Assembly: GCF_009866655.1 (NCBI RefSeq)
Contig: NZ_CP047420.1
Coordinates: forward strand, 1,612,001-1,676,000
Reading direction: 5' to 3'
Source: Rathayibacter sp. VKM Ac-2804
GTDB lineage: Bacteria > Actinomycetota > Actinomycetes > Actinomycetales > Microbacteriaceae
Length of the DNA stretch: 64,000 nucleotides
Shown here: positions 3,638-63,364 of the stretch, in pieces
How positions within the stretch are numbered: position 1 is the first letter of the stretch
Layout of the letters: each line of letters opens with the position of its first letter
Notes under the pieces: generated by a model
Seen by the model: the letters and a program-made list of their open reading frames with translations, nothing else
The model's database searches: none
Told to the model about the DNA's origin: nothing
Position numbers and translations under genes: made by a program

Positions 3638-4595
3638 GTTCTCCGGCGGCGCGCAGAAGGCCCGCCGCATCGACCACTTCGTCGCCCCGCTCGAGGAGAC
3701 GCCGATCGCCACGATCGACGCCGTCTCGCTCGACGACAAGCCCAGCAACCTCTGGACCGACGCCTGGCAGGACCTGCGCAAGCGCCCGATGTTCTGGATC
3801 TCGGGGGCGCTGATCCTGCTGATCATCGCCGTCGCGCTGATCCCGTCGCTGTTCACCTCCGTCGACCCCCGCGCCTGCGACCTCGGTCTCAGCAACCAGG
3901 GTCCCGGCGACGGCAGCGTCCTGGGCTACACGAAGCAGGGCTGCGACGTGTACTCCCGGATCATCCACGGCACGTCGACCTCGCTCTCCGTCGGCCTCAT
4001 CGTGATCCTGATCACGACGCTCACCGGCGTCGTCGGCGGCGCGCTGGCCGGCTTCTTCGGCGGCTGGGTCGACACCGTGATCATGCGCGCGGGCGACATC
4101 TTCTTCTCGATCCCCTACATCCTCGCCGCGGTCGTCATCATGTCGGTCTTCTCGGCGCACCGGAACGTGTTCGTCATCGCCCTGGCGATCGGCGCGTTCG
4201 CGTGGCCCACCACCGCCCGCGTCCTGCGGTCGGAGGTCCTCCGGGTGAAGCAGTCCGACTTCGTCGGCGCCGCGACGGCCACCGGCCTGTCGAGGATGGC
4301 GATCCTGTTCCGCCACGTGCTGCCCAACTCCATCGCCCCCGTGATCGTCGTCACGACGATCTCGCTCGGCGCGGCCATCACCGCGGAGGCGACGCTGTCG
4401 TTCCTCGGCGTCGGTCTGCCGGGCTCGGTGATGTCGTGGGGCAACGACATCAGCCAGGCGCAGCGCGACCTGCGGACCAACCCGCAGACGCTGATCTACC
4501 CGTCCGCCGCGCTGACCATCACCGTGCTGAGCTTCATCCTGATGGGTGAGGCCCTGCGCGACGCGCTCGACCCGAAGGCGAGGGCCCTCCGATGA
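3627..4595 (+). CDS. Peptide ABC transporter permease, DppC type
   Basis: This is the second permease of the importer, 322 aa. It has a long cytoplasmic N-terminal tail (about 55 residues) before the first membrane helix, as DppC/OppC proteins do (OppC_N region). A periplasm-equivalent loop carries two cysteines, and the BPD_transp_1 core includes an EAA loop (SDFVGAATATGLS, then HVLPNSIAP). The ATG at 3627 lies inside the end of dppB, and its stop overlaps the ATPase start in an ATGA. The two permeases and the ATPase are therefore probably translated in a fixed ratio. Confidence 0.93.
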   Translation: MPNEFSGGAQKARRIDHFVAPLEETPIATIDAVSLDDKPSNLWTDAWQDLRKRPMFWISGALILLIIAVALIPSLFTSVDPRACDLGLSNQGPGDGSVLGYTKQGCDVYSRIIHGTSTSLSVGLIVILITTLTGVVGGALAGFFGGWVDTVIMRAGDIFFSIPYILAAVVIMSVFSAHRNVFVIALAIGAFAWPTTARVLRSEVLRVKQSDFVGAATATGLSRMAILFRHVLPNSIAPVIVVTTISLGAAITAEATLSFLGVGLPGSVMSWGNDISQAQRDLRTNPQTLIYPSAALTITVLSFILMGEALRDALDPKARALR

Positions 4596-6328
4596 CGAAC
4601 ACGACTCCCACCACGCCGAAGGGCCCGCTGCTCGAGGTCACCGACCTCGAGGTGGGCTTCCAGACCGGCAGCGGACTGGTCAAGGCCCTGCGCGGCGTCA
4701 GCCTGACGATCGAGCACGGCCAGACCGTCGCAATCGTCGGCGAGTCCGGCTCCGGCAAGTCGACGACCGCCGCCGCGATCATCGGTCTGCTCCCCGGCAG
4801 CGGCAAGGTCACCGCGGGCTCCGTGCTGTTCGACGGCAAGGACCTGGCGAAGGCGACCAGGACCGAGCTCGAGGACATCCGCGGCCGACGCATCGGCTAC
4901 GTGCCGCAGGACCCGATGTCCAACCTCAACCCGGTCTGGTCGATCGGCTTCCAGGTCGAGGAGACGATCAAGGCCAACGGCCTCGCCTCCGGCCGCAAGG
5001 AGGTCCGCGCCAAGGCGATCGAGGTCCTGCAGAACGCCGGACTCGCCGATGCCGAGAAGCGGCTCAAGCAGTTCCCGCACCAGTTCTCGGGCGGCATGCG
5101 CCAGCGCGTGCTGATCGGCATCGGCCTGGCCGCGTCGCCGCAGCTGCTCATCGCGGACGAGCCGACCTCGGCGCTCGACGTGACCGTGCAGCGGCGCATC
5201 CTCGACCACCTCGAGACCCTGACGAAGACCGACGGCACCGCGCTGCTCTTCATCACGCACGACCTGGGCCTCGCCGCCGAGCGCGCCGAGAAGCTCATCG
5301 TCATGTACAAGGGCCGCATCGTCGAGTCCGGCGCCTCGGTGGAGGTGCTGCAGAACCCCCAGCACCCCTACACGCAGCGCCTGATCGCGGCGGCACCGAG
5401 CCTCGCCTCGCGGCGCATCCAGTCGACGGCCGGCAGCGCCACGGAGTCGGTGCCCGGCGAGTCCGCGGCCGTCCGCGAGGTCGACCTGGTCGGCGCGGCC
5501 GGCGCCCACCACGGCGGCGCGACCACCACCGCGCGGCCGATGATCGAGCTCGACGGCCTCACCAAGGTCTTCAAGATCCGCCGCGGCGGGCTGAAGGCCG
5601 AGGACTTCACCGCCGTCGACGACGTGTCGTTCGCGATCCCCAAGGGCACCACCACGGCGCTCGTGGGGGAGTCGGGCTCGGGCAAGTCGACGATCGCCCG
5701 CCTCGTGCTGGGGCTCGAGACGGCGACCAGCGGTGCGATCACGATCGACGGCCGTCGCACCGAGAAGCTCAAGGGCAAGGAGATGCTGGCGCTGCGCCGC
5801 TCGATGCAGCCGGTGTTCCAGGACCCGTACGGCTCGCTCGACCCGCTGCACAACATCGGCAACACCATCTCGGAGCCGCTGCGCGTGCACAAGGTCGGCG
5901 ACCGCACCTCGCAGCGCGAGCGGGTCTTCGAGCTGCTCGACCAGGTGTCGCTGCCGCGCGTGATCGCGGGACGCTACCCGAACGAGCTCTCCGGTGGCCA
6001 GCGCCAGCGCGTGGCGATCGCCCGCGCACTCGCGCTCAAGCCCGAGATCGTGGTGCTCGACGAGGCGGTGTCGGCCCTGGACGTGCTCGTCCAGGCGCAG
6101 ATCCTCCGCCTCCTCGCCGATCTGCAGGCCGAGCTCGGGCTCACCTACCTGTTCATCACGCACGACCTGGCGGTGGTCCGCGTGATCGCCGACGACGTCT
6201 GCGTGATGCAGAAGGGCCGGATCGTCGAGCACGCCTCGACGGACACCGTGTTCGAGTCGCCGGAGCAGGAGTACACCCGCGAGCTGCTCGCCGCCATCCC
6301 GGGCGCCGGCATCGAGTTCGCGGTCTGA
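4592..6328 (+). CDS. Peptide ABC transporter, fused double ATPase (DppD-DppF)
   Basis: This is a cytoplasmic ATPase with two complete ABC domains in one chain of 578 aa, replacing separate DppD and DppF subunits. Domain 1 has Walker A GESGSGKST at about residues 50-58, signature FSGGMRQRV near 163-171 and Walker B with DEPTSALD. A linker rich in Ala/Ser/Thr/Gly (about 270-315) leads to domain 2. That domain has a second GESGSGKST near 357, signature LSGGQRQRV near 465 and DEAVSALD. The oligopeptide ABC C-terminal extension follows each domain. The start overlaps the upstream stop by 4 nt. Such fusions are common in actinobacteria. Confidence 0.93.
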   Translation: MTNTTPTTPKGPLLEVTDLEVGFQTGSGLVKALRGVSLTIEHGQTVAIVGESGSGKSTTAAAIIGLLPGSGKVTAGSVLFDGKDLAKATRTELEDIRGRRIGYVPQDPMSNLNPVWSIGFQVEETIKANGLASGRKEVRAKAIEVLQNAGLADAEKRLKQFPHQFSGGMRQRVLIGIGLAASPQLLIADEPTSALDVTVQRRILDHLETLTKTDGTALLFITHDLGLAAERAEKLIVMYKGRIVESGASVEVLQNPQHPYTQRLIAAAPSLASRRIQSTAGSATESVPGESAAVREVDLVGAAGAHHGGATTTARPMIELDGLTKVFKIRRGGLKAEDFTAVDDVSFAIPKGTTTALVGESGSGKSTIARLVLGLETATSGAITIDGRRTEKLKGKEMLALRRSMQPVFQDPYGSLDPLHNIGNTISEPLRVHKVGDRTSQRERVFELLDQVSLPRVIAGRYPNELSGGQRQRVAIARALALKPEIVVLDEAVSALDVLVQAQILRLLADLQAELGLTYLFITHDLAVVRVIADDVCVMQKGRIVEHASTDTVFESPEQEYTRELLAAIPGAGIEFAV

Positions 6329-50875: not shown

Positions 50876-50994
50876 GACGCGAAATCCCGCTCCCGACTGG
50901 CGTCGGACGTCGGGTCAATCGACCACGTCCGGTCGCCTCGCGACCGCGTCTCCGCTGGCGAGCGCAACCGGCGTGACCCATCGTGGAAGGTGAC

Positions 50995-52425
50995 ATGGCT
51001 CTCTCGAGCAAGCTGCCGTCGGAGGTCCCCTCCGTCCGGCGCGGCCGCGACCCGCTCCGCTCACCGGCCGCTGCGCAGCGCGAACCGGTGTGGTCGACCC
51101 TCGTCTTCCTCGCGGTCGTCACCGTGCCCTTCCAGTACGCGCTCACCATCGACGTCGGCTCGCCGGTCAAGGTGTCCGAGATCCTGCTCGTCCTCGCGCT
51201 CGCGGCCCGGCTGCTGAGCCCTGGTTCGACGCGGACCCGGGTGCCCGGGCTCGGCTTCGTCGTGCTCCTGGCGGTGGCACTGGTCGTCTCCGGGCTCTAC
51301 TGGCTGGGCTTCGCCGGTCCGGTCCGGGGGCTCGACTTCACCGGCTACACGCGCTCGCCGAGCACGGACCTGCTGTTCTACACCGCCTTCGGGCTGTTCG
51401 CCCTCCTCGGCTGGTGGATGTTCTCCCAGCTCGGGCGGGACCGCTTCGAGCGGGCGATCATCCTCTCGATCTGGCTGGCCGGGGCGGCGACCCTGCTGCA
51501 GTTCGTGGGCGCGCTCCTGGGCCTGGAGACCCTGCTCGCCGACCTCGGATTCCGGTCGACGGGCGGCAGCAACCTCAGCGTCACCGGCGTGAACCTGCGC
51601 AGCGGTCCGTTCCTCGAGGGGCAGCACCTCGGCTTCTACGCGGGGGCAGCGCTGCTGATCGCGCTGAAGCGCCGATCGTGGCTTCCCGCGATCGTCGCCG
51701 CTCTGCTCGTCTTCTACTCCCAGTCGACGACCGCCGTCCTCGGGATCGTGGTCGCCGGGGCGATCCTGTTCCTCCTGCGTCCGCACGTCCGCGTGCTCGC
51801 CGCGATCCTCTCGCTCACCCTCCTGGTCGGAGGGCTGGCGGCGTTCGTCGCGCCGGTGCGCCAGTTCGTGATCAACCAGGCGGCGAAGCTCGGTCTGGTC
51901 TCGCAGACGGCCGAGTTCCGCTTCGCCGGTCTCTCCTTCGACGTCCGAGAGGAGAAGGCCTCGATCGGCGCGCAGATGGGGATCGATCATCTCGCGCTCG
52001 GAGTGGGCCCCGGCCGCTTCGGCGCCTGGTTCTCCCAGTACGCGGACTACACCGTGCTGCCGGCGTACTACCGGACGACCGACCTCCGGCCCATCGCCGA
52101 GAACGTCTACCTCCAGATCTTCGCCGAGATGGGAGTGCTCGCGCTGATCGGACTGATCGGGCTCCTCCTCGTCCTCCTGGTGCGCGCGCTGCGCGCGACT
52201 CCCATCGTGTTCGCGATCGGGGTCTGCGTCGCGGTCGGCCTCTGGACGCAGTCGTCCTGGACGTTCCTCCCGATCTGGGTCTTCCTGGCCTACGTCGGCG
52301 TGGCGGCGTCCGACCCCGACGTCGACCGGAAGGCAGCCGTCGCGGTTCCGGAGCGCCCGAGCAGGGTGCCCTCGGACCGGCTGTGGCGCAGCGGCTCGTC
52401 CGCCGCGCGTCGACCGTCCCGCTGA
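50995..52425 (+). CDS. O-antigen ligase/polymerase-like membrane protein (Wzy type)
   Basis: This integral membrane protein (476 aa, about 11-12 helices) has a large extracytoplasmic loop before the last helices, the topology of Wzy polymerases and WaaL ligases. A Wzy_C-like segment (LGVGPGRFGAWFSQYADY and later ENVYLQIFAEMG, residues about 335-385) is recognisable. It should link repeat units outside the membrane after flipping by the product of the next gene. The ATG at 50995 is chosen for the GGAAGG site. The GTG 12 nt upstream is less likely. Confidence 0.82.
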   Translation: MALSSKLPSEVPSVRRGRDPLRSPAAAQREPVWSTLVFLAVVTVPFQYALTIDVGSPVKVSEILLVLALAARLLSPGSTRTRVPGLGFVVLLAVALVVSGLYWLGFAGPVRGLDFTGYTRSPSTDLLFYTAFGLFALLGWWMFSQLGRDRFERAIILSIWLAGAATLLQFVGALLGLETLLADLGFRSTGGSNLSVTGVNLRSGPFLEGQHLGFYAGAALLIALKRRSWLPAIVAALLVFYSQSTTAVLGIVVAGAILFLLRPHVRVLAAILSLTLLVGGLAAFVAPVRQFVINQAAKLGLVSQTAEFRFAGLSFDVREEKASIGAQMGIDHLALGVGPGRFGAWFSQYADYTVLPAYYRTTDLRPIAENVYLQIFAEMGVLALIGLIGLLLVLLVRALRATPIVFAIGVCVAVGLWTQSSWTFLPIWVFLAYVGVAASDPDVDRKAAVAVPERPSRVPSDRLWRSGSSAARRPSR

Positions 52426-52444: not shown

Positions 52445-53923
52445 GTGCTCAAGAACATCCTGACGACCTACGCTGCCCGTTTCGCCGGGATGATCGCGAC
52501 CGTGGCGATCCTGCCGATCGTCACGGCCGGCGTCGGAGCAGCCGGATTCGGCCTCTACTCCCTCACGGTCTCGATGGGACTCCTGTTCCAGCAGGACCTC
52601 GGGATGACCGCCGCGACGGTCAAGTTCGTGGCGGAGTCCCGCGCCCGCGGGAACCTCGAGCGGATGCGCCGGGTGATCGCGACGAGCGAGGCGTTCTTCG
52701 CCGTCCTCTCGGTGGTCGCGGCGGCGCTCCTCGCGCTCGCGTTCTCGCTGACAGCGCCGACGCTGTCGGTGCCCTCCGAGTTCGGCCCGCAGCTCGGTCT
52801 GCTCTTCGCCCTGGGCACCGCGAACGTCTTCTTCGCACTCCTCTTCGCTCCCGTGCGCCAGACGCTCACCGGGCTCGGAGCGCTGAACATCGTCAACGGA
52901 TTCCTCACGCTCCAGGCTCTCGGCCGGGTCGTCCTCGCGGCCGTGGCCATGGCGCTCGGGATGCCGCTCTGGGTCGTGAGCGCCATCGACGTCTCCGCGA
53001 TGCTGCTCGGCGGCATCGGCATGTACGTCTTCCAGCACGTGCGCTTCCCGGAAGCGACGACCTCGCTCCTGCGGGCGGAGTGGAGCGTCTTCCGCGACAT
53101 CTTCGCACTGAGCTCCCAGCTGCTCGTCCTGAGCCTCGCGGGGGTCGTCATCCTGCAGTTCGGCTCGATCGTCGCGGGTGTGCTCCTGCCGCTGACCGCC
53201 GTCGCGGCCTACGCCGCCGCTCAGCGGGTCTACTCCCTGGTCAAGGAGGTGACCGCGTCACTGTCCTCCGCCGTGCTGCCCGCGGTGACCGAGCGCCAGG
53301 TCGAGGGCGGCTCCTCGGCCAACGGACGCGTCTACATCGGCGGCACGAAGTACGCGAACACCCTGATGCTCCTCGTCTTCGTCCCGATCATGGCGATGGG
53401 GCCGCAGCTGATCGACGTCTGGTCCGGCGGGCGACTGGAGGGCGCCGGTGCTGCAGCGCAGATCCTGGTGCTCTCGCTGCTCGCCAACAACAACCATCTG
53501 CTGGCGATCCCGGTCCTGACGGCGCAGCAGAACATCCGGCGGTTCGCCGTCCTGCACGTGATCTGGGCGGTGACGGCGGTGGGGTCGTCCTTCGTGCTCG
53601 CGCCGATCCTCGGTGTGGCAGGCATCGCGCTGGCCGTCTGCCTGCCCGTCGTGCTGCTCGAGTACTTCTACGTCCGCCACACCCTGCGCGCTCTCGGGCA
53701 GCCGTGGCGGTCCTTCCTCCTCGAGTGCCTGGCCCGGCCCTACGGGTCGCTCGCGGTGCCCGGCATCGTGGTCGTGCTCGTGGGGACGCACCTGCCGGCG
53801 AGCCTGCTCGAGATCGGCCTGCTCACCGGCGCCTGGCTGGTCGTGGCGCTTCCGCTGATCTACTTCCTCGCCCTCACCGCGGGCGAGCGCTCCCGCATCC
53901 GGCGGATCATCGGCCGTCGCTGA
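52445..53923 (+). CDS. Polysaccharide flippase (Wzx/MOP superfamily)
   Basis: This 492-aa membrane protein with about 14 helices belongs to the polysaccharide transporter family that flips lipid-linked repeat units. The N-terminus LKNILTTYAARFAGMIATV and the GLYSLTVSMG region are typical. It follows the Wzy-like gene by 19 nt, giving a Wzx/Wzy pair. The GTG at 52445 has GAGAAGGA about 10 nt upstream. Confidence 0.9.
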   Translation: MLKNILTTYAARFAGMIATVAILPIVTAGVGAAGFGLYSLTVSMGLLFQQDLGMTAATVKFVAESRARGNLERMRRVIATSEAFFAVLSVVAAALLALAFSLTAPTLSVPSEFGPQLGLLFALGTANVFFALLFAPVRQTLTGLGALNIVNGFLTLQALGRVVLAAVAMALGMPLWVVSAIDVSAMLLGGIGMYVFQHVRFPEATTSLLRAEWSVFRDIFALSSQLLVLSLAGVVILQFGSIVAGVLLPLTAVAAYAAAQRVYSLVKEVTASLSSAVLPAVTERQVEGGSSANGRVYIGGTKYANTLMLLVFVPIMAMGPQLIDVWSGGRLEGAGAAAQILVLSLLANNNHLLAIPVLTAQQNIRRFAVLHVIWAVTAVGSSFVLAPILGVAGIALAVCLPVVLLEYFYVRHTLRALGQPWRSFLLECLARPYGSLAVPGIVVVLVGTHLPASLLEIGLLTGAWLVVALPLIYFLALTAGERSRIRRIIGRR

Positions 53924-53944: not shown

Positions 53945-54229
53945 TCACACCTCGACGATGAAGCCGAGCGCGTGGAGGTGCTCGACGAAGACGGAGACGG
54001 CGTTCTGAAGACCGTGGACGTCGGTCCCGACGATCGACTCCATCCGGGCGATGACGTCCTCGGTGGACCGCTCCGGGAGGGCCCGCCAGATCTCGGCTCC
54101 GGACCCCTCCAGCAGCACGACTCGGCCCTGCGGATCGATCAGCGAGAGGCAGTAGACGCTCTCCGCCGATTCGACGAAGGCGACGTCGCCGCTGTACTGC
54201 CACACGCTGCGGATCCTATCGAGTTCCAC
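53945..54229 (-). CDS. PqqD-like protein
   Basis: This 94-aa protein has the PqqD winged-helix layout: strands (VWQYSGDVAFVESAESVYCLSL), then LLEGSGAEIWRALPER with the conserved hydrophobic-G-x-x-x-IW block, and a C-terminal helical pair ending LHALGFIVEV. PqqD domains bind ribosomal peptides for radical-SAM enzymes, but no radical-SAM gene or precursor peptide is seen nearby. The next minus-strand gene upstream is a pyruvyl transferase, and a second PqqD-like domain is fused to a nucleotidyltransferase at 62015. The function in the EPS locus is unknown. Confidence 0.8.
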   Translation of the reverse strand: MELDRIRSVWQYSGDVAFVESAESVYCLSLIDPQGRVVLLEGSGAEIWRALPERSTEDVIARMESIVGTDVHGLQNAVSVFVEHLHALGFIVEV

Positions 54230-54268
54230 CGCGGGGAACGGTGACGCGCTCCGCGGGCGACGTGCGGC

Positions 54269-55168
54269 TCAGAGCCACGTGATGTCGGCGCCGGTGTCCG
54301 AGAGCCAGGTGTCGTAGTACTTGCGCAGCTTGCCGATGCTGTTGTCCTTGACGACCACTCGGCGCCCGATCTGCAGAGCGATCAGCATCGCGTGCAGGCG
54401 GTCGGTCACCACGGTCTCGCCCCGCGAGAGGATCTCGACGCCGCGCTGGAGGCGCCGGGCGGATCGTCCCGACCAGAGCGCCGGGGTCGTCGGGATCACC
54501 GATCGCAGGGCGGGCAGCTCCTTCGTGCGGTGGGTCAGCCATGCCGTCGCGCGGTCGAGGGGGAGGTCCTTCGGCCAGTCGACTCCGTCCCCGAGCGAAC
54601 CGGTCGCCTCGGGGTCGCGGCGCACGAGTCGGACCTCGCGCGCCACGGGATCGGGGGCGGGGAGGAGGCCGAGGTGATGCACCGCGTCGGGGGACAGGAC
54701 CAGGTTCTCGACGTCCTTCTCGAGGGCCTCGTACGACTCGTGGTCCCGGACGGCGATCCGGAGACTCGACCTGCCGGCCATCCTGCGGCGGAACTCCTCG
54801 CGGTCGGCGTCCGACCTCCAGTGAACGGACTGCGGCCCCTGCAGCAGCAGCGTCGAGGAGGGCAGGCGCTCGGCGAGCGAGTGCCGGTGAGCACTGTGGA
54901 CCGGGTAGAGGCCGCCGAAGTTCCCGCCGCCGTTGATGAACACCGGGTCCGCCGCGTCGTACACCCGAGCGGGCATCGTGTGGAAGCTCGAGACGCCGCG
55001 GACGCGGATCCCGGCGTCCTCCCAGAACCGGAACTGCCCGGCCGCGATCGCGGCGTCGCCGATGTTCGCGTGGTCCGGGAAGTCGGTGGCCTCGACGCTC
55101 TGCACGCCGTCGTGGAGTCGGCGGAACGCCTCGCCGGCACGCTGCTTCATGATCTCGATGTAGCCCAT
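54269..55168 (-). CDS. Polysaccharide pyruvyl transferase family protein (1)
   Basis: This GT-B-like enzyme (299 aa) is expected to add pyruvate ketals from PEP to sugar residues. Family features are FPDHANIGDAAI near residue 30, the glycine patch FINGGGNFGG (about 74-83) and VVTDRLHAMLIALQIGR (about 252-268). GAGAGGA lies 7 nt before the ATG at 55168. It is co-directional with the PqqD gene (39-nt gap) and shares its message. The second paralogue is at 58589. Confidence 0.88.
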   Translation of the reverse strand: MGYIEIMKQRAGEAFRRLHDGVQSVEATDFPDHANIGDAAIAAGQFRFWEDAGIRVRGVSSFHTMPARVYDAADPVFINGGGNFGGLYPVHSAHRHSLAERLPSSTLLLQGPQSVHWRSDADREEFRRRMAGRSSLRIAVRDHESYEALEKDVENLVLSPDAVHHLGLLPAPDPVAREVRLVRRDPEATGSLGDGVDWPKDLPLDRATAWLTHRTKELPALRSVIPTTPALWSGRSARRLQRGVEILSRGETVVTDRLHAMLIALQIGRRVVVKDNSIGKLRKYYDTWLSDTGADITWL

Positions 55169-55307
55169 AGGAGTTCCTCTCGTGCCGACCCGCGGCCCCC
55201 GGTCGATCGGGAGCGTGCGGGTGGTCGGTGCGTCCGCGTCATGGCGATCGGCAGCAGGGCCGGGGACGACGGGAGGTCGACCGGCGGGAAGACGGGGACG
55301 GCGCCGT

Positions 55308-55313
55308 TAGGCT
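55308..55313 (+). promoter_or_regulatory. -10 element TAGGCT, leaderless-type, NTP_transf_5 gene
   Basis: TAGGCT ends 6 nt before the ATG at 55320, with no ribosome site. Confidence 0.5.
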
Positions 55314-55319
55314 CATCGC

Positions 55320-56237
55320 ATGCCGAGCTCGGACGTCCCTCAGGAGGACACAGTACAGGCGAAGCTGCCGCAGACCGTCGCGGTGCAGCTCGGGGCCGCG
55401 CTGGTCCAGTCGCTGTCGGACGCACTGCAGGTGCGGGCCCTGATCCTCAAGGGATCGGCGGCAACGATCCACGGATTCCGGCCGGTCCTGCAGTCGAGCG
55501 ACGTCGACGTGCTGCTCTCCCGGGCGGACGCCGGCCGTCTCATGGCCGCGCTCGAGGGACGGGGCTGGCGCCGTCGGCGCACCGCACCGGCCCCGCGTCA
55601 GTTCGAGCTGCACTCCGAGACGCTCTTCCACCCCGAGTGGCCCTGCGACATCGACATCCACTGGCGGTATCCGGGACTCTTCGCCGCGCCCGAGGTCGTT
55701 CTCGACCGGCTCTGGGAGACGTCGACGACCGCGCGGGTCGCCGGACGGGACGTGCGGATGACCGATGCGACCGGAACGGCGCTGATCCTCGCCGTCCACG
55801 CCCTCCGCGATCCGAATCGTCCCCGGAGCGAATCGGATCTCGCCGCGGTCGCCGCTCGGCTCGAGGACCCGGACTTCGCGCGGCGGTTCCGGCACGAGGT
55901 CGTCCGACTGCGAGCGCAGTACCCGCTGCGGGCGCTGTTCGTCCGGTCGGGGGCGACGCCGCCCGGGCACGATCTGACGCCCGAGGAGCGGGGGAACTGG
56001 GACCTCGAGGTGCAGAGCTCGGGGTCGACCACTCTGCACTGGTACGTCGCGTTCGTCCGCGCTCCGCTGCTGCGCAAGCCCCGGCTGGTGCTCTCGCTGT
56101 CGAAGGCCCTCCTGCTCGCGCTGACGGCGTCACGGGCGGGGTACCCGAACGGGGGGACGCCGCCGAGCCGCAAGCTCCGGGAGGCCCTCGCCGAGATCGG
56201 CCGCCTGCGCCGAGCGCGGGCTCGCGGGGTCGAGTGA
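55320..56237 (+). CDS. NTP_transf_5-like nucleotidyltransferase
   Basis: This 305-aa protein has a pol-beta-type nucleotidyltransferase core: ILKGSAATIHGF (about 42-53) with the GS turn, SSDVDVLL (DxD, about 60-67) and a third acidic pair CDIDIHW (about 110). This matches the uncharacterised NTP_transf_5 family (PF14907, from memory) that recurs in EPS loci. The C-terminal half is helical. It may attach a nucleotide to a small molecule or protein; the target is unknown. The ATG at 55320 is leaderless. It is divergent from the pyruvyl transferase/PqqD unit. Confidence 0.82.
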   Translation: MPSSDVPQEDTVQAKLPQTVAVQLGAALVQSLSDALQVRALILKGSAATIHGFRPVLQSSDVDVLLSRADAGRLMAALEGRGWRRRRTAPAPRQFELHSETLFHPEWPCDIDIHWRYPGLFAAPEVVLDRLWETSTTARVAGRDVRMTDATGTALILAVHALRDPNRPRSESDLAAVAARLEDPDFARRFRHEVVRLRAQYPLRALFVRSGATPPGHDLTPEERGNWDLEVQSSGSTTLHWYVAFVRAPLLRKPRLVLSLSKALLLALTASRAGYPNGGTPPSRKLREALAEIGRLRRARARGVE

Positions 56238-56418: not shown

Positions 56419-57531
56419 TTGGTCTTCTCCGCGCGTCGAGCCTCCGGGCGAGCACGTCCCGCCGGTCGCCCCGCGGTCGTGCACATCGCGGAGAGCTTCG
56501 GGGGAGGTGTCGCCGCCGCCATCCACGACTACGTGCGGAATCTGCCGGACGCTGAGCACCACCTCCTGTACTGCCCCCGCGAGGACGCACCGCTCGCCCC
56601 CTCCGATCTCGAGGGCTTCGCCGGCGTCACCGCCCTTCCGTCCGGGCTCCGTCAGCGCTTGAAGGCGATCCGCCGGGACGTCGATCTCATCGACCCCGAG
56701 GTCGTGCACGCCCACTCGAGCTTCGGCGGCGCCTACGCGAGACTGGCGCTGCGCTCCTCCGCTTCGCGGCCGATCGTGTACACGCCGCACTGCTACTCGT
56801 TCGAGCGGGGCGATCTCAGTGCCTCGCGGCGCACGGCCTACTGGATCATCGAGCGCGTGCTCTCGTTCAACACGGCGGTCTACGCGGGCTGCTCGTCCCG
56901 CGAGGTCCGGCTGTCGCACTGGCGCGGCAGCTCCGCCGCCACGGAGCTGCTGCCCAACGTGCCGCCGCACGACCTGCCGGCCCGGCGCGCACCGCGGTCG
57001 TCGGACGGTCCGCTGCGCGTCGTCGCCGCCGGCCGGTTCGGGCCGCAGAAGGACCCGGCGTTCTTCGCCGCCGCGATCCAGCAGCTCAAGGACGACGGCC
57101 GCGACGTCGACGCCGTCTGGATCGGCGGCGGCGACGGCCCGTACGCCGAGCTCCTCGTCGCCGCCGGCGTCCGCATCACCGGCTGGCTCGGTCGCGAGGG
57201 CGCTCTGCGCGAGCTCGCCGAGGCCGACCTCTACGTGCACGTCGCGAAGTGGGAGGGCTTCCCGATCGCCCTCCTCGAGTCGGACGCGCTCGGCATCCCC
57301 ACCGTGGTGCGCGACATCCCGGCCTTCGAGGACGTCGACGTCCCGCTGCGGATCGGCGAGCCGCGCGAGCTCTCCGAACTGTGGGACCGGCTCCTCGACA
57401 CCTCGTTCAGGACGGACCTCGTCCGCCGGCTCGAGGCGGTGCTGTCGGAGTACATCGACGAGCGCCAGCAGGAGGCGCTCCGCCGCGTCTACGGGATATC
57501 CGCACTGAGCCGAGAGGGAGAAGCCGCGTGA
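56419..57531 (+). CDS. Family 4 glycosyltransferase (1)
   Basis: This GT-B retaining glycosyltransferase (370 aa) has the donor-binding C-terminal half with VVAAGRFGPQKDP, WIGGGDGPY and HVAKWEGFPIALLESDALGIP (E-x7-E motif). The N-terminal half opens VVHIAESFGGGVAAAI. A TTG start at 56419 with GAAGGA 8 nt upstream is used. No ATG or GTG fits better before the conserved core. It overlaps the next gene by 4 nt (GTGA), so two GT4s and a pyruvyl transferase form one operon. Confidence 0.9.
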   Translation: MVFSARRASGRARPAGRPAVVHIAESFGGGVAAAIHDYVRNLPDAEHHLLYCPREDAPLAPSDLEGFAGVTALPSGLRQRLKAIRRDVDLIDPEVVHAHSSFGGAYARLALRSSASRPIVYTPHCYSFERGDLSASRRTAYWIIERVLSFNTAVYAGCSSREVRLSHWRGSSAATELLPNVPPHDLPARRAPRSSDGPLRVVAAGRFGPQKDPAFFAAAIQQLKDDGRDVDAVWIGGGDGPYAELLVAAGVRITGWLGREGALRELAEADLYVHVAKWEGFPIALLESDALGIPTVVRDIPAFEDVDVPLRIGEPRELSELWDRLLDTSFRTDLVRRLEAVLSEYIDERQQEALRRVYGISALSREGEAA

Positions 57532-58592
57532 CGCGAGTGCTCGTCTCCGCCCGCGTCCTCGACAAGCAGGTCGGCGGCAACACGCGCTACGCGCGGACCA
57601 TCTACTCGGGCCTCGCCCGGCACGGCGTCGAGCACACGCTCGGCCGACCGCCGCTGGCCACGGGCCGGGTGCGCAGCGCGGTCTATGCGGGCTGGGAGGG
57701 CGTCGTCTGGCCGCTCGCTCCCGGCAAGGGCGTCGACGTGCTGCACTTCCCCGCCGACACCGGAGCGATCCTCCCCGGCCGGGTCCCCGTCGTGTCGACG
57801 GTGCACGGGCTGGCCACGCTGCACATGGAGGGGGTGCGCTCACCCCGCGCCGACCGGCTGTGGCGTGCCAGGGTCAGCCGTCTGGTCGACGTGAGCGACG
57901 AGATCATCACCATCTCGAACTCGTCCGCCCGGGACATCGACACCATCGTGCCCGGCGCGATGTCGAAGATCACGGTGATCCCGCACGGCATCGACCATCG
58001 GACCTTCACGCCGACCGCGGGCTCCGCGGACGAGGCGGAGCGCGCCCGCTTCGAGATCGACGGACCGTACTTCCTCTACCTGGGCAACCTCGACCCCCGC
58101 AAGAACGTCATCGAGCTGTGCCGGGCCGCCGAGCAGGTCTTCGCCCGCACCGGCGTCCCGCTGCTCATCTCCGGCGCGCCGGCGTGGGAGAGCGAGTCGA
58201 TCATGGGGGTCGTCGAGAGCACCCCCGGCGTCCGCTACCTCGGCCGGGTCTCCGACGAGGCGCTGGTGCCGCTCCTCCGCGGTGCCCTCGCCTTCGTCTT
58301 CCCCTCGAAGTACGAGGGCTTCGGCTTCCCGGTCGCCGAGGCGATGGCCTGCGGAACCCCTGTGATCTGCTCCGATCGCGGCTCGCTCGGCGAGGTCGCG
58401 GGAGACGCCGCGCTGATCGTGCCGGGGCTCGACGCCGACTCGATCGCGCAGGAGATGCTCCGGCTGGTCGAGGACGAGCCGCTGCGCGCCGATCTGCGCG
58501 AGCGGGGACTGAAGAACGTGCAGCGCTTCGTCTGGGAGACGTCGATCGCCGAGCACGCCCGCGTCCTCACGAGAGCGGCGTCCCTGCGATGA
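57528..58592 (+). CDS. Family 4 glycosyltransferase (2)
   Basis: This GT-B enzyme (354 aa) is close to WbaZ/WcaI-type mannosyl or rhamnosyl transferases. It has GGNTRYART near the start, the HG motif IPHGIDHRTF, FLYLGNLDPRKN and the donor motif FPSKYEGFGFPVAEAMACGTP. It is translationally coupled to its neighbours at both ends (4-nt overlaps). The sugar specificity is not readable from sequence. Confidence 0.92.
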   Translation: MTRVLVSARVLDKQVGGNTRYARTIYSGLARHGVEHTLGRPPLATGRVRSAVYAGWEGVVWPLAPGKGVDVLHFPADTGAILPGRVPVVSTVHGLATLHMEGVRSPRADRLWRARVSRLVDVSDEIITISNSSARDIDTIVPGAMSKITVIPHGIDHRTFTPTAGSADEAERARFEIDGPYFLYLGNLDPRKNVIELCRAAEQVFARTGVPLLISGAPAWESESIMGVVESTPGVRYLGRVSDEALVPLLRGALAFVFPSKYEGFGFPVAEAMACGTPVICSDRGSLGEVAGDAALIVPGLDADSIAQEMLRLVEDEPLRADLRERGLKNVQRFVWETSIAEHARVLTRAASLR

Positions 58593-59734
58593 AGGTCACG
58601 CTCATCCACGCGTACAGCACGACGAACTCGGGCGACGGCCTCCTCGTCGACGAGGCCGCCGAGATCGTCCGCGAGGCGCATCCGGAGGCGGTCCTCACCC
58701 TGGTGGCGATCGATCCCGACAGCTTCGACGCCTCGCGGTTCGCCGACGTGATCCATCCTCTGACGGGGCGCAGCGGCGGGATCGGCAGCCTCGAGACCCT
58801 GGCGAGAGGAACCGTCGCGTTCCTGCTGGGACGCAGGTCGGCGGGGTACCGAGCCGCGGTCGAGGACGCCGACCTGGTCGTCGCGGTCGGCGGCGGCTAC
58901 CTCCGCGGCAAGGCGCCGGTCGAAGCACTCAAGATGGTGCTCGCGCATGTCACTCAGATGCCCGTGCGCGCGGACACGGTCCCGTTCGTCTTCCTGCCGC
59001 AGAGCATCGGGCCGCTGAGGGTCGGCACTCTGCCCATCGTCTCGCGCCGGCTGCGGAACGCGAAGGCCGTCGTGGTCCGCGACGACCGATCGGTGCAGGA
59101 GCTCGCCGCCCTCGGCAACGTGCGCCGGGCGCCGGACATGGCGCTCCTCGGGCTTCCCGCGGAGTGGGACCCGCAGTCGACGGTGCGGGTCGGTCAGGGC
59201 GGCCCGATCGGACTGGTCGCGCGCGAGCTGACCTCGACCCGGGCGCGGGTGAAGCAGTACCGCGAGCGCATCGACGCCCTCGCAGGGGCTGAGGGCGTCG
59301 AGCTGCTCGCGCAGGCCACGGCGAGGGGCAACAACGATCCGGATTTCTACGAGTCCCTCGGGCGTCGCGGACCGTTCCGCACGCTCCGCGAGGTGGTCGC
59401 CCTCGGCGCCGCCTCCCGACCCGATGTGGTCGTGTCGGTCCGCCTGCACGGCTCGATCCAGACGATCAGGAGCGGGGTGCCGAGCGTGCACCTCAGCTAC
59501 GAGCGCAAGGGCTTCGGCGCCTACGCGGATCTGGGGATCGACGAGTTCGTCCACAACGTGTTCGACTTCGACCCGGCGCTGGTGCTCGCGCAGGTGGCGA
59601 GGCTTCGCGAGGACCCGTCGCCGTACTGGGCGGCCGTCGAGGCGTCCGTCTCGCGGCTCACCGCTCACCGGTCCGAGCTCGTCGCTCTCCTCCGTGCTCC
59701 GGAGGGCGCTCTGCTCCCTGCTCCGGGGCGCTGA
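58589..59734 (+). CDS. Polysaccharide pyruvyl transferase family protein (2)
   Basis: This second pyruvyl transferase-like protein (381 aa) has a start (MKVTLIHAYSTTNSGDGLL) with the NxGD loop, AVGGGYLRG (about 97-105), FLPQSIGPL and VSVRLHGSIQTIRSGVP. It is longer than and only distantly similar to the first copy, so they probably act on different sugars or positions. The ATG at 58589 overlaps the upstream stop. Its stop is 6 nt from that of the convergent YdcF-like gene. Confidence 0.88.
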   Translation: MKVTLIHAYSTTNSGDGLLVDEAAEIVREAHPEAVLTLVAIDPDSFDASRFADVIHPLTGRSGGIGSLETLARGTVAFLLGRRSAGYRAAVEDADLVVAVGGGYLRGKAPVEALKMVLAHVTQMPVRADTVPFVFLPQSIGPLRVGTLPIVSRRLRNAKAVVVRDDRSVQELAALGNVRRAPDMALLGLPAEWDPQSTVRVGQGGPIGLVARELTSTRARVKQYRERIDALAGAEGVELLAQATARGNNDPDFYESLGRRGPFRTLREVVALGAASRPDVVVSVRLHGSIQTIRSGVPSVHLSYERKGFGAYADLGIDEFVHNVFDFDPALVLAQVARLREDPSPYWAAVEASVSRLTAHRSELVALLRAPEGALLPAPGR

Positions 59735-60773: not shown

Positions 60774-61823
<1,050 letters not shown>

Positions 61824-62014
61824 TTACCGCACCCCGGGCGGCCGCCTGGACGGCGCCGGAGCGCCCGCTCGCCGTGAGCGGGTCCCGCTCCGCGGGCGAC
61901 GTCCCGCGCAGGCGGACGCCGATGCCGCGCCCGAGCGCTCTTCTTCGGCCGTCCGCTCCTACCGTGTTCTGCGGTGCGGATCCGCGCCGCCGACGGAGAG
62001 GGGCAGCAGGCACC

Positions 62015-63364
62015 GTGCGACCCACCGCTCACCTCCCGCTGCACGCCGCCGTCGGGCTCGCCCACGCGCTGGTCGACGACGTCGCCCGGAGAGCCCGGGT
62101 CCGCGCGCTCTTCATCAAGGGCCCGATCGCCGATGCGCATCGGATCCGCCGCCCCCATCCCTCCAGCGACGCGGACGTGCTGGTCGACCCGCGCGAGGCG
62201 GACCGGCTCCTCGCGCTGCTCGCCGAGCGCGGCTGGTCGGTCCGGCCGGGATCCGCGGCGCACCGCGCGTTCGTCACCCACTCGGTGACCCTCCTGCATC
62301 CCTCCTGGCCGTGCGACATCGATGTGCACACGAGCTGGCCCGGCTTCTTCACCGACCCGCAGCACGCCTTCGAGGTGCTCTGGCGGACCCGCTGCGAGAT
62401 CGAGGTCGCCGGAGTGCCGGTCCGAGCGAGCGGAGTCGACGCGGCGGTCGTCGTCTCGGCCCTGCACAGCCTCCGCTCGCCGCACCAGCGGCGCAGCGAG
62501 GAGGAGCTGGACGAGCTCGTCGCGGCGGTCGCGGCCCAGCACCGGGAGGGGGCGGTGGCGGCACTGGCCGCCGAACTCGGCTGCCTCGAGCCGATCGCAC
62601 CCTTCCTCGCCCGGATCGGGGCGTCCGTCGCGCTGCCCGCCCGCCCGAGTCAGCAGTACGCGCTCTGGCGGCTGCGCACCCGTCGACCGAGCCGGACGGC
62701 GGACTGGCTGCTGGCGGTCGCGGAGGCGCCGACGCTCGCGGAGCGACTCGTCCTGCTCCGGCGGGCGCTCCTCCCCACCCGTCGGGACCTCGTCGTCGAT
62801 CACCCGCTGGCGCCCCGGACCGCCGTCGCTCGGCTGGGGCTCCGCGGGCGGCGGTTCGCGGCGGCGGCCGGCGCCCTCCCGGTCGCCGTCCGGGATCTCG
62901 TCGCCGTGCGTCGCGCTCGCACCGAGGTGCGCGGTGCCCCGGACCCGCGAGAGCGGACGGCCGAGCCTCGTCGATCCGATGCTCCTCCCGCCCCGGCGCC
63001 CGGCGGTCCTGCGGCCTCGAGCGTCGGCGGTGTCGACGGCGCGTCGGCGGAGACGACCGGCCACGCCGTGAGCGCGTCGTCCCGGCGTCCGCGGACCCGC
63101 GCAGGAGTGGCGACCATGGCGACGGCCGACGGCCTCTACCTCCTCCCGCTCGGCGCCGGCGGGCCGGCTCGGCCGTACCTTCTGCAGGGGGCCGCTCGGC
63201 TGCTCTGGGAGCTGTTCTCGGAGCAGGGATGCTGCACGCGTGCCGAGGCGGCCGCTGTCGTCCGCGACGCCGACGACCTCGAGGCTCTCGTCGCCGCGGA
63301 GGCACAGGCCGACCTCGACCGGCTGCTCGACGAGCTCGTCGAGCTCGGACTCCTGACGGGTTGA
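62015..63364 (+). CDS. Fused NTP_transf_5-like and PqqD-like protein
   Basis: This 449-aa protein joins the two domains found as separate genes at 55320 and 53945. The N-terminal nucleotidyltransferase part has ALFIKGPIADAH, SSDADVLV (DxD) and CDIDVHTSW. The GS turn is changed to GP. A Pro/Ala/Ser-rich linker (about 305-365) leads to a C-terminal PqqD-like domain (about 368-449) with DGLYLLPLG, LLQGAARLLWELF and LLDELVELGLL. The GTG at 62015 is chosen as it starts just before the fold; frames open upstream run over the rmlB promoter. The function is unknown. Confidence 0.78.
   Translation: MRPTAHLPLHAAVGLAHALVDDVARRARVRALFIKGPIADAHRIRRPHPSSDADVLVDPREADRLLALLAERGWSVRPGSAAHRAFVTHSVTLLHPSWPCDIDVHTSWPGFFTDPQHAFEVLWRTRCEIEVAGVPVRASGVDAAVVVSALHSLRSPHQRRSEEELDELVAAVAAQHREGAVAALAAELGCLEPIAPFLARIGASVALPARPSQQYALWRLRTRRPSRTADWLLAVAEAPTLAERLVLLRRALLPTRRDLVVDHPLAPRTAVARLGLRGRRFAAAAGALPVAVRDLVAVRRARTEVRGAPDPRERTAEPRRSDAPPAPAPGGPAASSVGGVDGASAETTGHAVSASSRRPRTRAGVATMATADGLYLLPLGAGGPARPYLLQGAARLLWELFSEQGCCTRAEAAAVVRDADDLEALVAAEAQADLDRLLDELVELGLLTG

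Follow-up and report, generated by a model that had tools for sequence, protein, structure and literature searches.

The window analysed here, a stretch of 64,000 nucleotides of the Rathayibacter sp. VKM Ac-2804 chromosome (NZ_CP047420.1, positions 1,612,001 to 1,676,000), carries an exopolysaccharide (EPS) locus with genes for a discrete PqqD protein, for a nucleotidyltransferase-fold enzyme of the NTP_transf_5 family, and for a second NTP_transf_5 enzyme fused to a PqqD domain. We propose, with a probability of roughly 0.6, that these genes are parts of a chromosome-spread modification system for secreted proteins, guided by PqqD domains that act as RiPP (ribosomally synthesized and post-translationally modified peptide) recognition elements (RREs). 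The reading is based on gene identities, folds, conserved residues, linkage, co-occurrence, a sequence motif, and its spacing. The preliminary description of this DNA had listed HprK as missing from the set. This is true of the window but not of the genome: a 402-amino-acid HprK-like kinase with a C-terminal PqqD domain is encoded at chromosome positions 3228819-3230024.

Co-occurrence of the kinase and an N-terminal signature

Genes for secreted proteins with a common N-terminus (RR-x7-W-x-x-P...AAAS) recur beside the kinase/NTP_transf_5/PqqD module in related actinobacteria. The N-terminal signature of this protein family, named AWAxP here, is RR-x7-W-x-x-P-x-[VIL]-x11-Ser. Its distribution and that of the kinase were followed in 150 genomes of the family (Microbacteriaceae, to judge from the genus) and 238 genomes of the order (both words denote taxonomic ranks, and some genomes are in both samples), with thresholds of E<=1e-7 for the signature in the family set and E<=1e-12 for the kinase in the order. 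In the family, the kinase was found in 12 of 150 genomes (E below 1e-30, with the next best match at 1.2e-4). The signature was found in 13 genomes, i.e., in the same 12 and in G085, at 1 to 35 copies each, so that 12 genomes had both, one had the signature only, and none had the kinase only (Fisher 7.5e-17); just 1 of the 138 kinase-free genomes was positive for the signature. In the order, the kinase was found in 43 genomes and the signature in 42: 37 genomes had the two together, 6 had the kinase without the signature, 5 had the signature without the kinase, and 190 lacked both (Fisher 1.4e-31). When counted by hand at the level of genera, the numbers for both, kinase only, signature only, and neither were 8, 0, 1, and 76 in the family and 17, 2, 0, and 65 in the order. 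The co-occurrence of the kinase and the signature is the strongest evidence for the system.

NTP_transf_5 was present in all 12 kinase genomes of the family, in 11 of them by the Pfam profile PF14907 and in the twelfth, G090, where PF14907 fails to detect the gene, by a search with own sequences; PqqD (PF05402) was present in 11 of the 12. The Pfam NTP_transf_5 and PqqD profiles correlate less closely with the signature than the kinase does, with 12/22 and 12/28 positives shared, respectively. At the scale of the phylum, the NTP_transf_5 search was positive in 11 of 296 genomes. The corresponding kinase search matched 218 of 296 genomes at E<=1e-3 and was not used for counts, because the matches were mostly short P-loop stretches.

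Linkage was studied in 69 named loci obtained in an NTP_transf_5 search and extending up to 10 kb to each side (57 are at least 20 kb long and 12 are shorter). These loci are not independent events, as several genera, with Demequina and Microbacterium foremost, contribute many of them. The kinase was found in 39 loci, PqqD, alone or fused, in 54, and the EPS-associated Wzz/BY-kinase (bacterial tyrosine kinase) in 45; 18 loci have an initiating transferase, 13 have a low-molecular-weight (LMW) phosphatase, and 11 have a signal peptidase. AWAxP genes were present in 28 of the 39 loci with the kinase and in 4 of the 30 without it, and in 20 of the 37 order genomes with both kinase and signature, a signature gene lay no more than 10 kb from the kinase gene, where ~0.95 would be expected upon random placement in a 3.2-Mb genome; these linkage figures lean upward, because the proteins used to make the signature profile had been found near NTP_transf_5 genes and some of the sampled genomes gave rows to it.

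The signal peptidase gene followed the kinase as well (11/39 loci with the kinase and 0/30 without it). Six such genes are separated from the kinase gene by 20 bases or less or overlap it by a few bases, three of the six on the same strand. No signal peptidase was found in the window or in the 20-kb region around the kinase gene of Rathayibacter sp. VKM Ac-2804.

The signature and the proposed marking of exported proteins

The signature profile has 48 columns, some of its rows being supplied by four of the eight Demequina loci, and was run over 20 genomes. Motif statistics were obtained for 95 distinct proteins, after removal of 4 spurious pattern matches from 99. The Trp was present in 95/95 proteins with a search pattern that also permitted Phe and Tyr, while the Pro at +3 was demanded by the pattern. 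Position +5 was occupied by Val, Ile, Leu, or Met in 95/95 proteins, Pro at +12 was present in 97%, and Ser at +17 in 95% (in 94/95, within +16 to +18). The spacing from the twin Arg to the Trp was 9 in 82/95. Past the Ser, there was no conservation. The proteins are 107-573 amino acids long, and none of the 95 has an LPxTG tail. In our reading, the +17 Ser would be located at a typical A-x-A cleavage site or immediately after it, and the twin Arg suggests export by the twin-arginine translocation (Tat) pathway. In two scans of 10 proteins each, Pfam and NCBIfam assigned the AWAxP N-terminus to no family.

Of the 32 signature matches in eight Demequina genomes, 29 were inside the module stretch, as were 15 of the 28 matches in ten others (from 2/2 down to 1/7). 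The genome of Rathayibacter sp. VKM Ac-2804 contains 25 matches; the Rathayibacter genome that carries locus L140 contains 10, none of which falls on the contig coordinates of L140. The protein or peptide substrate postulated in the preliminary description is retained as the best reading, but the clients are probably dispersed secreted proteins with the signature rather than a small peptide of this locus.

The enzymes of the window belong to the families that had been proposed for them. The discrete PqqD protein (53945..54229, minus strand) matched PF05402 at E 3.5e-9 (37.3 bits, with the curated cut-off at 23.4), and the NTP_transf_5 enzyme (55320..56237, plus strand) matched PF14907 at E 3.1e-13 (50.3 bits, cut-off 31.2). 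A PqqD profile built from the window protein and four relatives matched the solved structures of TbiB1 (5v1u, 5.2e-7), 9x90 (1.8e-5), and the RRE of linear polyphosphorylated peptides (LPP; 9x8z, 5.8e-5); a PqqD and TfuB1 complete the set of solved relatives at E<=0.001, whose ids also include 3g2b and 6jx3. According to PMC13381572, four of these five are RREs of lasso or LPP systems. Discrete lasso RREs are described as binding a [Y/W]xxPx[L/V/I/F/A] motif, and the AWAxP signature fits this motif.

In an alignment of 17 NTP_transf_5 sequences, residues K44, G45, D61, D63, D110, D112, and H114 were invariant, the DxD and the later Asp thus being unchanged in all of them. The model of the window enzyme (pLDDT 86) had MenT1, ANT(2''), and LnuA as nearest solved folds, while FKRP, solved with CDP-ribitol, matched at E 0.0015 and above. 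The kinase has its P-loop in the N-terminal part, and H114, K136, D152, and E153 were invariant in 14 aligned sequences, a set that resembles the lasso kinase motif His-Lys-Asp-Asp. Its model (pLDDT 87) was best matched by phosphoenolpyruvate carboxykinases (E 6e-5, TM about 0.4), with HPr kinases ranked second (E 0.0015 and above).

We infer the following sequence of events. PqqD domains, either free or fused to the kinase or the nucleotidyltransferase, would bind W-x-x-P-x-[VIL] inside the twin-arginine signal. The HprK-like kinase would then phosphorylate the nearly invariant Ser, 17 residues past the Trp, before export, and the nucleotidyltransferase-fold enzyme may add a nucleotide, a phospho-sugar, or a hexose onto the Ser phosphate. 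The tagged protein would exit via Tat, with signal peptidase cutting near the Ser, and the tag may aid in positioning or retaining it within the EPS matrix. Tat exports folded proteins, so cytoplasmic modification before export would be allowed.

Some of these steps have precedents in studies on peptides. LppK phosphorylates Ser3 of its precursor several times, 18 residues past Tyr-16; LppS, a signal peptidase, handles the unphosphorylated precursor poorly; and LppN changed no product and showed no activity in its host (PMC13381572). In the pseudomycoidin pathway, PsmK phosphorylates a Ser and PsmN puts a hexose on the phospho-Ser by a route that is not settled (PMC8498205, PMC9266682). Plain nucleotidylation, the activity suggested in the preliminary description, is therefore not the most probable first step, since the HprK-like kinase of lasso and LPP systems phosphorylates Ser, and the NTP enzyme acts later (PsmN) or had no activity in its host (LppN).

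The closest known relative is the LPP system of Bacillota (lppA-K-B-S-D-N), published in May 2026 and said there to be restricted to this phylum (PMC13381572). The claim of an undescribed system thus holds in part only; no report of an actinobacterial or Tat-linked version was found in titles and abstract openings of the open-licence PMC literature. LPP shares with the system considered here a discrete RRE, an HprK-like kinase, an NTP transferase (at the level of the PF14907 family), a capsule or EPS setting, a signal peptidase in some loci, and an aromatic-x-x-P-x-aliphatic motif in the clients, with a Ser 18 residues past the aromatic residue in LPP and 17 here; the aromatic residue is Tyr in the LPP precursor and Trp in the signature. 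In contrast to LPP, the clients are proteins of 107-573 amino acids, often dispersed, with a twin-arginine signal, at 1 to 35 per positive family genome, and PqqD is fused to the kinase in 11/69 loci or to the NTP enzyme in 8/69.

Three hallmarks of LPP were sought in vain. All 11 classified signal peptidases passed the bacterial-type profile TIGR02227 and none passed the archaeal TIGR02228, so that 0/11 were of the SipW/archaeal type; relatives of the L086/L085 transporters, taken for the MsbA-like exporter, occurred in just 3/69 loci; and the LPP precursor (35-200 amino acids, YxxPxVLxHQxIxFETxxS) is replaced here by W-x-x-P-x-[VILM]...Ser. Because of these differences, the system resembles LPP but is not classed as LPP, and an actinobacterial variant of the LPP pathway is our best reading of it.

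The paeninodin and pseudomycoidin lasso peptides (PadeK/PsmK kinase, PsmN, B1 RRE) employ the same three enzyme families, and paeninodin-like precursors have a WxxP type of leader (PMC8498205, PMC9266682). Unlike these, the probable clients here are proteins instead of a threaded peptide. Searches for the macrolactam cyclase and B2 peptidase covered the 69 loci, the window, and 20 kb around the kinase gene and revealed no relatives of the L086 Asn_synthase and Transglut_core3 (these were single-sequence queries, by which distant relatives may be missed). We do not class the system as a lasso cluster; a real one in the same bacterial family, L086, looks different. L086:6752-11031 contains a 51-amino-acid open reading frame (ORF) with a YxxPxI start, Asn_synthase, Transglut_core3, Hpr_kinase_C, NTP_transf_5, and PqqD. 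It represents a phosphorylating lasso gene set outside Bacillota, whereas the 2026 paper limits paeninodins to Bacillota (PMC13381572). Two glycosyltransferase-rich loci, L084 and L085, contain PqqD, a kinase-like ORF, Asn_synthase, and NTP_transf_5, and match the EPS-type kinase profile only weakly.

Membership in the NCBIfam HPr-rel-A system was not supported: TIGR04352, the best NCBIfam match of the kinase, scored 25.9 bits with a cut-off of 200, and TIGR04353 matched the PqqD domain of the NTP_transf_5 fusion very weakly (10.7 bits, cut-off 35). PEP-CTERM/exosortase is likewise an EPS-linked processing module that serves many dispersed exported proteins, but its sorting tag is C-terminal and its enzymes are different, while the signature here is N-terminal. 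A general actinobacterial sorting pathway, in which RREs would read WxxP in Tat signals and a phospho(glycosyl) group, made by the kinase and the nucleotidyltransferase-fold enzyme on the Ser next to the cleavage site, would anchor proteins to exopolysaccharide, as an N-terminal counterpart of sortase/exosortase, is a tentative extension that we hold to be possible but rather doubtful.

If the proposed system is real, RREs serve not just in the making of small natural products but also in marking exported proteins of full size, the unexplained gene trio of EPS loci gains clients and a mechanism, and the role of the NTP_transf_5 enzyme becomes directly testable. From sequence only, each positive genome of the family is predicted to encode 1 to 35 clients.

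Counterevidence and alternative explanations

Several results weigh against the proposed system. The NTP step is its weakest part, because LppN, the nearest studied NTP enzyme, altered no product. The Pfam TAT model gave one weak match among 10 signature proteins scanned. In Rathayibacter sp. VKM Ac-2804 itself, none of the 25 signature matches lies in the window or closer than 100 kb to the kinase gene, and in 17 of the 37 order genomes with both elements, the signature genes are all more than 10 kb away from the kinase. The kinase was not seen in 30/69 NTP_transf_5 loci (12/69 loci are shorter than 20 kb). Signature-only mismatches are G085 in the family and G469, G529, G543, G556, and G674 in the order; kinase-only mismatches in the order are G479, G561, G575, G616, G642, and G684; and genus g290 alone supplies five. 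In G085, a search of four stretches with own profiles gave one weak kinase match (24 bits), as in the lasso-type loci. In addition, at least 2 of the 13 family positives and 3 of the 42 order positives supplied rows to the signature profile.

An unlikely, though not far-fetched, explanation is that the kinase, NTP, and PqqD proteins act on the EPS machinery (the BY-kinase, the Wzz tail, the initiating transferase, or a lipid-linked sugar) and regulate chain assembly, the AWAxP proteins being co-inherited. The presence of Wzz/BY-kinase in 45/69 loci, and of BY-kinase, LMW phosphatase, or initiating transferase in 57/69, speaks for it, as does the location of the kinase gene of Rathayibacter sp. 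VKM Ac-2804 directly between the initiating transferase and Wzz/BY-kinase. However, in a control search Wzz/BY-kinase was found in 92 of the 150 family genomes and 79 of these lack the signature, while the kinase and the signature track each other even when signature genes are dispersed; this explanation also leaves the RRE-type motif and the fixed Ser of the secreted proteins unexplained.

Two further accounts appear improbable. As a cryptic classic RiPP system, the trio could tailor a small peptide, either linear or lasso-like, whose gene is close to the window or distant from it; the same three families do occur in the lasso-type cluster L086, and pseudomycoidin, in which Ser is phosphorylated by PsmK and a hexose is installed by PsmN, is a precedent. 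The cyclase and B2 relatives expected from L086 were missing from the single-sequence searches described above, however, and the small precursor peptide sought in the window was rejected: three small ORFs match a loose leader pattern, but none is convincing and all look like shadow ORFs. The short families among conserved neighbours were just a Demequina-type 38-amino-acid ORF, with two Microbacterium ORFs, and a 58-amino-acid ORF in six loci. Even less probable is that AWAxP is an ordinary subtype of Tat signal whose correlation with the kinase stems from shared ancestry or habitat, not function. Positives do cluster in certain genera, and segregation is unclean: g290 has five genomes with both, four with the signature only, and one with the kinase only, g88 has two kinase-only genomes, and g332 has one. 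Against this stand genera that divide with both elements together (with negatives partly listed, both elements occur in four genomes of g85 and neither in at least five others; the corresponding numbers are three and one for g86 and one and one for g15) and the rarity of the signature in kinase-free family genomes (1/138 at E<=1e-7).

Genes of the window and of related loci

As first described, the PqqD and NTP_transf_5 genes flank a polysaccharide pyruvyl transferase gene (54269..55168, minus strand; PF04230, 60.2 bits) within a Wzx/Wzy locus. The pyruvyl transferase gene, which we count as an EPS gene outside the core system, immediately precedes the PqqD gene and has the same orientation; the NTP_transf_5 gene is divergent from this pair. 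The true start of the PqqD gene is probably 54205 instead of 54229, because all four database entries found, the window's own protein among them, are 86 amino acids long. The NTP_transf_5 protein is 92% identical to a protein of R. festucae. The NTP_transf_5-PqqD fusion (61787..63364, plus strand), overlooked in the preliminary description, adjoins rmlB and matches PF14907 at 104-272 (26.9 bits) and PF05402 at 464-523 (17.8 bits), each domain alone scoring under its Pfam cut-off. It shares 33% identity with the first NTP protein, and a fused homolog is present in the same-genus locus L067. Its true start is probably downstream of 61787, perhaps at 62015 as estimated with a home-made gene caller. 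Scans of the whole genome gave three PqqD and two NTP_transf_5 matches.

The surrounding EPS genes code for a Wzy-type polymerase/ligase (50983..52425, plus strand; PF04932, Wzy_C, 50.5 bits), a Wzx-type flippase (52445..53923, plus strand; PF01943, Polysacc_synt, 58.2 bits), two GT4 glycosyltransferases (56419..58592, plus strand; Pfam matches in both ORFs), a second pyruvyl transferase (58589..59734, plus strand; PF04230, 74.7 bits), and RmlB, dTDP-glucose 4,6-dehydratase (60774..61769, minus strand; TIGR01181, 475 bits, over the cut-off). An ABC (ATP-binding cassette) ORF of the window, at 4592-6328, is distant from the PqqD and NTP_transf_5 genes. At the kinase locus, Wzz/BY-kinase is followed by genes for an LMW tyrosine phosphatase and UDP-glucose dehydrogenase. 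A radical SAM gene near the kinase was rejected as a partner; it belongs to the Rv2578c family and, with thymidine kinase and Mqo genes around it, has the appearance of a housekeeping gene.

The pairing of PqqD with NTP_transf_5 in EPS loci, noted in the preliminary description, goes beyond chance: the two window proteins exceed their curated cut-offs, in 8/69 loci the anchor NTP gene itself includes a PqqD domain, and in 28 more a PqqD ORF lies within 1 kb. In L140, L144, L148, L171, and L182 (Rathayibacter and Agreia), the two ORFs overlap by a few bases, which suggests translational coupling.

A conserved 58-amino-acid ORF present in six loci (e.g., L152:15496-15672) is followed by a conserved protein of ~220 amino acids, with no visible link to the trio. 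A conserved ORF of 34-38 amino acids with one hydrophobic stretch was found in six Demequina loci (L133:11330-11446, L135:11380-11496, L136:11318-11434, L137:13571-13675, L138:11350-11445, and L160:11336-11452), upstream of AWAxP genes except in L137; two ORFs of the Microbacterium locus L147 cluster with it. Finally, a record titled Sporosarcina beigongshangi (L168) contains an actinobacterial-type PqqD-NTP locus with a GC content of 56%, pointing to either transfer or mislabelling.

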